A stretch of DNA of 64,000 nt, from contig JAPEUQ010000007.1 in assembly GCA_027946365.1 (NCBI GenBank), positions 186,001-250,000 of the forward strand, read 5' to 3'. Made by a program: the position numbers and the translations under genes. Shown piece after piece: positions 27,723 to 29,643 of this stretch; the stretch's first letter is position 1; each line of letters begins with the position of its first letter. The notes beneath the pieces were generated by a model. That model was not told where the DNA came from, ran no database searches, and was given only the letters and a program-made list of their open reading frames with translations. This DNA comes from Kalmusia sp. IMI 367209. Lineage: Eukaryota > Ascomycota > Dothideomycetes > Pleosporales > Didymosphaeriaceae.

Positions 27723-27900
27723 AGGCCAGCAGGTCAACGTCTACATCGGTACCTTTACTGAGAGCGATGGACATGCCGGCAACGCCTTCAGATCGTAGAT
27801 GGTGGCTTGAGAGAGCTTCAATTGCCCGCCTGGAAGCCACGGTCTCACTCTACTTCACCATCAACTAGTCAAATTTCTTCCTGTGCTCAGCATCGCCGAA

Positions 27901-27958
27901 GCAGCTCAATGAAAAAGGGAGTCGCGTCGGCGATTGGTAGTGCAAAGAAGGCGACACG
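27901..27958 (-). repeat. Diverged duplicate of the U2 snRNA 3' hairpin and 3' flank
   Basis: The plus-strand 19-mer GCAGCTCAATGAAAAAGGG at 27901-27919 is identical to 28114-28132. Beyond it, TCGCG and TAGTGCA recur at the same spacing (11 bases between them) in both copies. On the minus strand both copies fold into a 6-7 bp stem: CGUGUCG with CGACGCG here, GUGACG with UGUCGC in the U2 gene. One U-A pair here is A-U there. No U2 5' domain lies upstream of this copy, so it is not a full second gene. Confidence 0.7.
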
Positions 27959-28133
27959 TATTTCTGTTAAGACGACAAATACACCACCTCGGAATGACAC
28001 GAACAGTGGGTACCTACACCCGCCACATGCTTACTATATACCACGCTATAACTGATCGGGGTGATAGAAGGCGAAAGGTAGACAATTCTTCCTCGAGTAG
28101 ACAGCAACGCTGTGCAGCTCAATGAAAAAGGGT

Positions 28134-28368
28134 CGCGACAGCATCCGATAGTGCAGATAGAAGCGTCACTGTGGCCTCAACTATGAGCAAGCCCAGTGAG
28201 AGGAGGCCCGGCTTCAAAAATAGGAATAATCTTGAATATCCCCGTAGGGATGTTTCAGAGATTAAACTGAAAAGAACAGATACTACACTTGATCTAAGCC
28301 TGTGTTTCTGTTAGCGATGCATGTGATGGTTGACTGTTAGGGGTACATACCAAAAGGCAAAGAGAGCT
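28134..28368 (-). ncRNA. U2 spliceosomal snRNA, interrupted by an mRNA-type intron
   Basis: U2 snRNA base-pairs with the intron branch site and with U6. On the minus strand the 5' exon (about 28368-28351) reads AGCUCUCUUUGCCUUUUG, the usual fungal U2 5' end. After a 51-nt intron, exon 2 begins at 28299 with GCUUAGAUCAAG and GUGUAGUAUCUGUUC, which contain the U6-pairing segment and the GUAGUA branch-point recognition sequence. Stem-loop IIa follows (UUUCAG/CUGAAA), then IIb (AUCCC-UACG-GGGAU), an Sm site (AUUUUUGA at about 28222-28215), a stem with GGCCUC/GAGGCC and a final hairpin. The 3' end near 28134 is inferred from the last hairpin and gives about 184 nt after splicing. A TATA box sits about 30 bases upstream. 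Short protein frames across this locus are ignored. Confidence 0.93.
28300..28350 (-). other. 51-nt spliceosomal intron inside the U2 snRNA gene
   Basis: On the minus strand the donor is UUUUG|GUAUGU and the acceptor is ACACAG|GCUUAG. Two CUAAC branch-site candidates lie at 28340-28336 and 28314-28310; the second puts the branch A about 11 nt from the acceptor, normal for fungi. Its length matches the 48-62 nt introns of the neighbouring protein genes. Removing it rebuilds the near-invariant fungal U2 sequence without a gap. Confidence 0.92.
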
Positions 28369-28395
28369 GGAGTTCAAGGGAGGTGGTGCAATGGG

Positions 28396-28406
28396 TTTTT
28401 ATAGTC
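28396..28406 (-). promoter_or_regulatory. TATA box of the U2 snRNA gene
   Basis: The minus strand reads ACTATAAAAAC, about 30 bases before the inferred U2 5' end at 28368. Confidence 0.6.
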
Positions 28407-29643
28407 TGTGGTGCCAAGCACGCTAGAGGCGCTAGTAAATCACGTGATGTACAAAATGCGATAAAGGAAGGTGAATGGAGGACTTGGCTTTGCGATAGTA
28501 ACACGTGAAATGCATTTGCCTGTCCTCGCAGGATAGACATATATGTGCCTTGTTTGCATTGTAAACCTAGGGAAACTTACATTAGGCAGCGCAGCGCAAT
28601 CTTCCATTCGTATTTCATTGCTTCGCGGCGCCATTCCTAGAGCCCGTCGTGCTTCTATATGTCCAGCATTTACACGACAAATAAGTCTCTGTATCGTTTG
28701 CGTTGAAGTTGTGTACCAGATGTAACTTACGGTACAATATCACAATATCAAATTGGAGACCATACACACCCTGCCACTAAGTGCCCTCGAGAATTATAAA
28801 GTTTTGGACCACCTTAAGCTGACGATAGAGGTCTCTTCATACTCGCTAACCTCCTAAATTTCATGTCACTACTTAAGTACCGACTACAATCTACAGTGAC
28901 CATAGAAGCTATTTCGATGCCTCTGACATCGCATGAGTGACTATTACAAAATAGCGTCCCGAGAAGCATACGTGCGCATTTGTCATAAGTGCCTACCCAG
29001 TACAGCCTCAGGCCAATATCTCGGAGGTTGTATTGTTTATCATGGGGTAACTTGGTCTTCAATGAGTCTCCGGACTCCATGCGCACTCACCTTACAAGCA
29101 TGAGGAATGACACTCTCAAGGAGCGACTCAAAAAGATGCTGTGCTTGGCCTATTTGTATACTGTTGAACACACTGGCTTGCCTCTACAAGATTCATCCCC
29201 GTATTGTGCAGCTTGCCAGCTTACTAAAACCCAGATCTGGGCTGGTTGTGTACAAAATCGTACTACCGTCGCGGGTTGGTAAGTCTTCCTCGGTTTCTAC
29301 CAAATGATCTCAAATAGCTTTTATATTGCCTTTTGAGTCACGCAGCAGAAGAGGAACTACTACTATTCTATCTTTCACAGTTCCTCTTCGGCTACCTACA
29401 CCTTCTGCTTCAAACATAGTACAATGATAGCTTTTGTATCATAAATGAAACCACCCACAATTCTTCATACTTGCTAAAAGCTATATGGTAACGAGGTCCT
29501 TCCAAGATCTGTGCGTGTGATAGTTATAGGTCGATGTTCAGCAAAAGAAGCAACTTGCACGCTAGGTAGATCACTCTAAACTGCCTAAAATTACTGAATT
29601 TTAGCCTTTGTATGGTAGTGCAACCTAGGAACTGCCATACTCA
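28407..29643. other. Intergenic between U2 and the pectinesterase-like gene
   Basis: No coding family or repeat was recognised. The distal 1.2 kb is AT-rich. The 100 bases upstream of the U2 TATA box include a CACGTG on each side of 28440-28505, but no known snRNA element was identified. Confidence 0.45.

Follow-up and report, generated by a model that had tools for sequence, protein, structure and literature searches.

The minus strand of the window, the whole 64,000-nucleotide stretch of Kalmusia sp. IMI 367209 DNA analysed here, carries from 28368 to 28130 a complete U2 snRNA gene that is split by a 51-nt GT-AG intron (Table 1). Very probably this is a live U2 gene whose introns, here and in its paralogues, are removed by the spliceosome, and since all three canonical U2 genes found in the genome are interrupted, the supply of canonical U2 would depend on the splicing of pre-U2. 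Transcription, splicing and dependence are deduced from the sequence; the anatomy of the gene, the intron signals, the exact junctions in paralogues and the census of copies are direct observations.

Table 1. Features of the interrupted U2 snRNA gene (window coordinates)
Feature	Position	Strand	Remarks
Upstream CACGTG and TAGCG motifs	28430..28446	-	common to other snRNA loci, not all; no random control
TATA box region ACTATAAAAACCC	28393..28405	-	lies about 35 nt before exon 1; U1, U2 and U4 loci are spaced similarly; no random control
U2 exon 1, AGCTCTCTTTGCCTTTTG	28351..28368	-	5' end, U2/U6 helix II segment, 5' half of stem-loop I; the paralogue L001 continues uninterrupted
Intron A, 51 nt, GTATGT...ACACAG, two CTAAC sites	28300..28350	-	
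Likely branch site CTAAC, 12 nt before the 3' splice site	28310..28314	-	coordinates from the match of CGCTAACAG at 28316-28308
U2 exon 2: helix Ib GCU, branch-recognition sequence, stem-loops IIa/IIb, Sm site, stem-loops III and IV	28130..28299	-	3' end approximate
Branch-point recognition sequence GTGTAGTATCTGTTC	28274..28288	-	
Sm site ATTTTTGA	28214..28221	-	
snRNA 3' box CATTGA - hairpin - GAGGAAGA, likely 3'-end signal	28087..28124	-	

The Rfam covariance model of U2 (RF00004) matches positions 28370-28127 with 128.9 bits (gathering score 46, E 7e-26). The match covers the full length of the model (positions 1-192), and the extra bases are taken as a 52-position insert. Across the window no Rfam family other than U2 exceeds its gathering score, and an ARAGORN search for tRNAs there was negative. 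The branch-point recognition sequence GUAGUAUCUGUUC is present at 28288-28274, as are the Sm site and stem-loops IIa, IIb, III and IV, with a TACG loop in IIb and one non-standard pair in IV; the U2 body that the earlier note had read on this strand, with its UACG loop and Sm site, is borne out by the full-length match. Helix II, between the 5' end of canonical U2 and the 3' region of U6, is calculated at -12.0 to -15.1 kcal/mol with the intron-free U6 forms of the genome. Exon 2 opens at 28299 with GCTTAG, and intron A falls exactly at the start of the U2/U6 helix Ib segment. The GCU of exon 2 can pair with AGC in the genome's own U6 (ACAGAGAAGATTAGC), which we take to be the helix Ib partners of the pairing scheme, and the intron does adjoin GCU beside the catalytic core as had been proposed. 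Just downstream of the gene, a degenerate copy of stem-loop IV and the 3' box was read by eye on the minus strand at 27957-27876. A perfect direct repeat of 19 nt ties this copy to 28132-28114; cmscan gave no Rfam match at E <= 1 over 27850-28110, and the link to U2 consists of the repeat and the reading by eye.

The exact 3' box pattern lies downstream of all five U1 loci, three of four U2 loci and two of three U4 loci, and also after U3. It is probably a small-RNA 3'-end signal, although the pattern itself is unspecific (at least 260 places, against 118 in the control). Rfam detected three U1 loci, all below the gathering score; two more (L064 and L065), absent from the Rfam search, came to light through the shared 3' box and inspection. 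No interruption was seen by eye in the U1 loci. U3 has one locus (L077), uninterrupted by eye.

Seven inserts of 49-58 nt are present in five snRNA genes: five in U2, one in U4 (L018) and one in U6 (L011). Every insert has the donor GTATGT, GTAAGC, GTGAGT or GTAAGT, the acceptor YAG, and CTAAC or CTGAC 10-13 nt before its end. An intron signature written post hoc, after the inserts had been seen (GT-R-N-G-Y, CTRAC 8-18 nt from the end, YAG), is found in 7/7 inserts and in 6 of 1,278,930 window stretches of 49-58 nt on both strands, these six being uninspected and possibly including real introns. A chance match was rejected on the Rfam U2 score and on this signature rate. Coding genes of the window yielded 14 strong-donor intron candidates at 11 distinct donors, some of the 14 being alternative acceptors, against none in a reversed-sequence control; before the donor filter the figures were 105 and 35. 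Intron A follows the donor, branch and acceptor consensus of the genome at the usual length, and its likeness to the introns of neighbouring genes, noted earlier, holds against this control. At site A the paralogue L001 reads TTTGCCTTTTGGCTTAGATC without interruption. Because L001 is continuous there, the ends of insert A are fixed to within one base, and its removal restores the sequence of the uninterrupted homologue. These ends fit the mRNA-type intron of 51 nt, from GUAUGU to ACACAG with two CUAAC sites, that the earlier note had described.

RF00004, searched against the 42.78 Mb of this genome in 30 contigs, gave four U2 loci above the gathering score, namely L001, L002 (the window copy), L003 and L004. 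The exact 13-nt core of the branch-recognition sequence occurs at four places genome-wide, the same four loci (control 0). An 18-nt pattern of that sequence with up to 2 mismatches occurs at nine places (control 3), of which the five extra ones have no Rfam match at E <= 0.1. The Rfam-based search gives a lower bound, as it overlooked U1 loci L064 and L065, and the U2 census is blind to an intron inside the branch-recognition sequence and to more changes in that sequence. Self-dependence had first been made conditional on this being the only U2 gene, a premise that fails with three further loci in the genome. The genome-wide Rfam check for an intron-free copy had two outcomes: an intron-free canonical U2 was not found, but the divergent locus L004 is intron-free.

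All three canonical U2 loci are interrupted, by five introns at three positions. L001 has one intron, C, in stem-loop IV; the window copy has intron A only; L003 has three, A, B and C, with B between stem-loops IIa and IIb. Because the three interrupted loci are on different contigs, an isolated odd locus and an assembly fault were both rejected. A pattern scan for the same interrupted U2 in prokaryote and viral contigs returned 0 matches, which is uninformative given such contigs. Two further U2-related sequences were observed. L027 (G000:C6:136458-136547, minus) is an internal U2 fragment, 93% identical and 8.5 kb from the U2 gene L001; it spans site B without an intron and, as L001 also lacks intron B, decides nothing. 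L029 (G000:C25:3543847-3543989, minus) is an snRNA-like gene with a TATA box, TAGCG motifs and a 3' box. It carries the Sm site and stem-loops III and IV of U2, but where the branch-recognition domain would be, its 5' half is unrelated to U2, which makes it a chimeric U2-tailed RNA (Rfam U2 score 32.1 bits, below the gathering score).

When spliced in silico, the RNAs of L001 and L003 are identical at 189/190 positions, even with the two extra introns of L003. The C introns of the pair are identical in 43/58 alignment columns, above the shuffle null (n=300: mean 0.61, max 0.72). With exons so nearly identical and intron C diverged, the mature RNA is therefore constrained while the introns drift. 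Among the seven introns compared with each other, only the C pair is alike. Once spliced, the window RNA shares 86.9% identity with L001 and likewise with L003, and the first 68 nt are the same in all three canonical spliced RNAs. Differences between the window RNA and the other two include paired changes in stem-loops IIb, III and outer IV, with one non-standard pair in inner IV. Base pairs of stem-loops II-IV are compensated between U2 genes after intron removal, in a comparison for which the paired strands were picked by hand and without a null.

Interruptions also occur in U6 and U4. U6 loci L009 and L010 are uninterrupted, L011 is interrupted near the U6 3' end (1/3 of full-length loci), and L012 is truncated at its 5' end. 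Over 70/70 nt (L012:1504-1573), across the junction, L012 equals the intron-free form of L011, from which it lies 4.4 kb away; the other U6 loci differ from it across the L011 junction region. L012 may be a copy of spliced RNA or the trace of an intron that L011 gained very recently, and in the former case is a genomic hint of splicing. It could, however, predate such a gain, which counts against the splicing reading. No U2 counterpart of L012 across site A was found. An inverted 20-nt fragment of the U6 3' part lies near L012 (1807-1788, G000:C28) and shares its 3' flank; the two together may reflect either RNA-mediated copying or rearrangement. U4 has three loci, of which L017 and L019 are uninterrupted. 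L018 (G000:C26:1683897-1684030, minus) has a 50-nt intron after U4 nt 13, near the U4 5' end, with ends inferred by length matching with L019. The intron sits in the 5' part of U4 that pairs with U6 in stem II. L018 is without a clear TATA box and without the exact 3' box. The single U5 locus, L013 (G000:C4:491806-491921), is uninterrupted. It has no 3' box, and a B-box-like GGTTCGAATC and T runs lie just downstream; U6 loci L009 and L010 carry GTTCGA, comparable to this element. Judging by these elements, Pol III may transcribe U5 in this fungus.

An origin of the introns by reverse splicing, put forward in the earlier note, is no more than compatible with the data and fits intron A best. Intron A lies close to an active-site snRNA segment, that of helix Ib; introns B, C and those of U4 and U6 are elsewhere and not clearly near such a segment. 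A competing account, which in our estimate falls somewhat short of an even chance, holds that the introns were already in the ancestor of the U2 family and disappeared from one copy after another, for instance when the cDNA of a spliced RNA recombined with the gene. Intron A occupies one and the same site in the window copy and in L003, only 86.9% identical to each other, whereas L001, nearly a twin of L003, lacks it. As judged from these sequences such a distribution speaks for one loss or more, or else for two gains at a single site, and ancestry would explain it in one step because a loss in L001 would suffice. L012 also hints at RNA-mediated copying. The two A introns are, however, no more similar (60%) than unrelated intron pairs (49-66%). 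For introns B and C a gain is suggested, since B is in one gene only and the window copy, L004 and L029 all lack C.

L004 (G000:C8:821072-821268, minus) bears on the question of which genes supply the cell. It scores 80.9 with the Rfam model (gathering score 46), below the canonical copies, and is 63.7-67.3% identical to the spliced canonical U2 RNAs. The branch-recognition core and the GCU are retained, as are stems, picked by hand, that show compensatory changes in stem-loops IIa, IIb and IV. A TATA box is located at -37 together with two CACGTG motifs; TAGCG and the exact 3' box are absent. The 5' end of L004 pairs at -12.8 kcal/mol with the U6 of L010 and L011 (10 bp) and at -8.1 with that of L009. 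Canonical U2 pairs best with the L009 U6 (-15.1; -13.3 and -12.0 with L010/L011), so that the preference of L004 is the reverse, hinting at matched U2/U6 pairs. L004 has the look of an old U2 paralogue preserved for its structure, one that may be working or may be decaying. Its score, promoter motifs, core, paired stems and 10-bp U6 pairing would agree with a cell in which L004 supplies the U2 and the interrupted canonical loci are silent or minor. That arrangement is nevertheless very improbable: silent genes would not retain near-identical exons beside drifting introns, the three canonical RNAs share an identical first 68 nt, and L004 itself is the divergent gene, with the lower score, the missing 3' box and TAGCG, and poor pairing with the L009 U6. 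Mainly because of L004, the self-dependence of the spliceosome is put as likely only. The argument for it is strengthened by the interruption of L001 and L003 and could be weakened by L004.

Stem-loop IV of U2 can vary in length between species, and the inserts might be tolerated expansions kept in mature U2, without splicing. This is hardly credible: donor, branch and acceptor signals are present in all seven, A is inside the stem of stem-loop I and B between IIa and IIb, two inserts separate L001 from L003 with all but one exon position matching, and the U6 copy L012 is without the insert, exactly. Least credible of all is a spread by introner-like elements of a mobile intron family, of a kind described in Dothideomycetes (PMC4457414), for the seven introns are unlike each other except for the C pair, and an introner family was rejected for the window intron, the one intron searched against the genome, which matched a single place, itself.

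In the preferred reading, with splicing of the canonical pre-U2 RNAs, Pol II would make a capped pre-U2 from the TATA promoter; the signals are seen, and the polymerase, cap and processing are suggested by them. The conserved 3' box (CATTGA, hairpin, GAGGAAGA) would be where the transcript is cleaved. The 51-nt intron, of the standard U2-type (GT-AG), would be spliced as in mRNA by the very spliceosome that U2 serves, joining a first exon of 18-20 nt to the U2 body. L001, with one intron, and L003, with three, would be spliced likewise, closing a loop in which the U2 snRNP makes U2. L004, if functional, may add U2 that bypasses this loop. A tentative extension, which we consider possible and on balance doubtful, is a self-hosting spliceosome. 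Canonical U2 from L001-L003 would arise only via its own splicing, with the U4 and U6 copies partly in the loop; positive feedback would set the U2 level and could sense splicing capacity. L004, its 5' end matched to the L010/L011 U6 and not to that of L009, would be a starter or back-up against collapse of the loop.

Introns in snRNA genes are of a known kind; new, apparently, are their number, their positions and the interruption of every canonical U2 copy. The intron of the Schizosaccharomyces pombe U6 snRNA is described as an mRNA-type intron near the catalytic nucleotides that is removed by the spliceosome and explained by reverse splicing (PMC10484740). The present case is similar in having mRNA-type introns in spliceosomal snRNA and differs in the snRNA concerned, with five introns at three positions in three U2 genes, plus those in U4 and U6. 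Introns in U3 are common in Pezizomycotina, some species mixing intron-bearing and intron-free copies, and U3 and U6 are given as the sole small structured RNAs then known to be often interrupted (PMC5832005). These U3 introns are likewise spliceosomal introns in a small structured RNA; U3 acts outside the spliceosome, so there is no self-dependence, and L077 looks uninterrupted here. Takahashi et al. in 1993 reportedly described an mRNA-type intron in the U2 snRNA gene of Rhodotorula hasegawae, said to be just downstream of the branch-recognition domain. This is an mRNA-type intron in the same gene as here; the organism is, however, a basidiomycete yeast, and that position is not A, B or C. 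Spliceosomal (mRNA-type) introns also occur in ascomycete rDNA, where they have been explained by reverse splicing. Those interrupt a conserved structural RNA as well, although a ribosomal and not a spliceosomal one. No report of snRNA introns in filamentous ascomycetes was found in a search of the open-licence literature.

Where some yeasts have a single intron in U6 or U2, it is a curiosity, since their other copies or other snRNAs remain intact. In the present genome every canonical U2 copy found is interrupted, at three points, and copies of U4 and U6 are hit as well. The presence of the intron-free, divergent L004 raises the question of a bootstrap copy. Two questions become testable in one organism: how introns enter snRNAs (sites, parallel gain, loss), and whether a cell can rely on its spliceosome to build that very spliceosome. 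Paralogues with unlike intron content and nearly the same mature RNA provide built-in controls.
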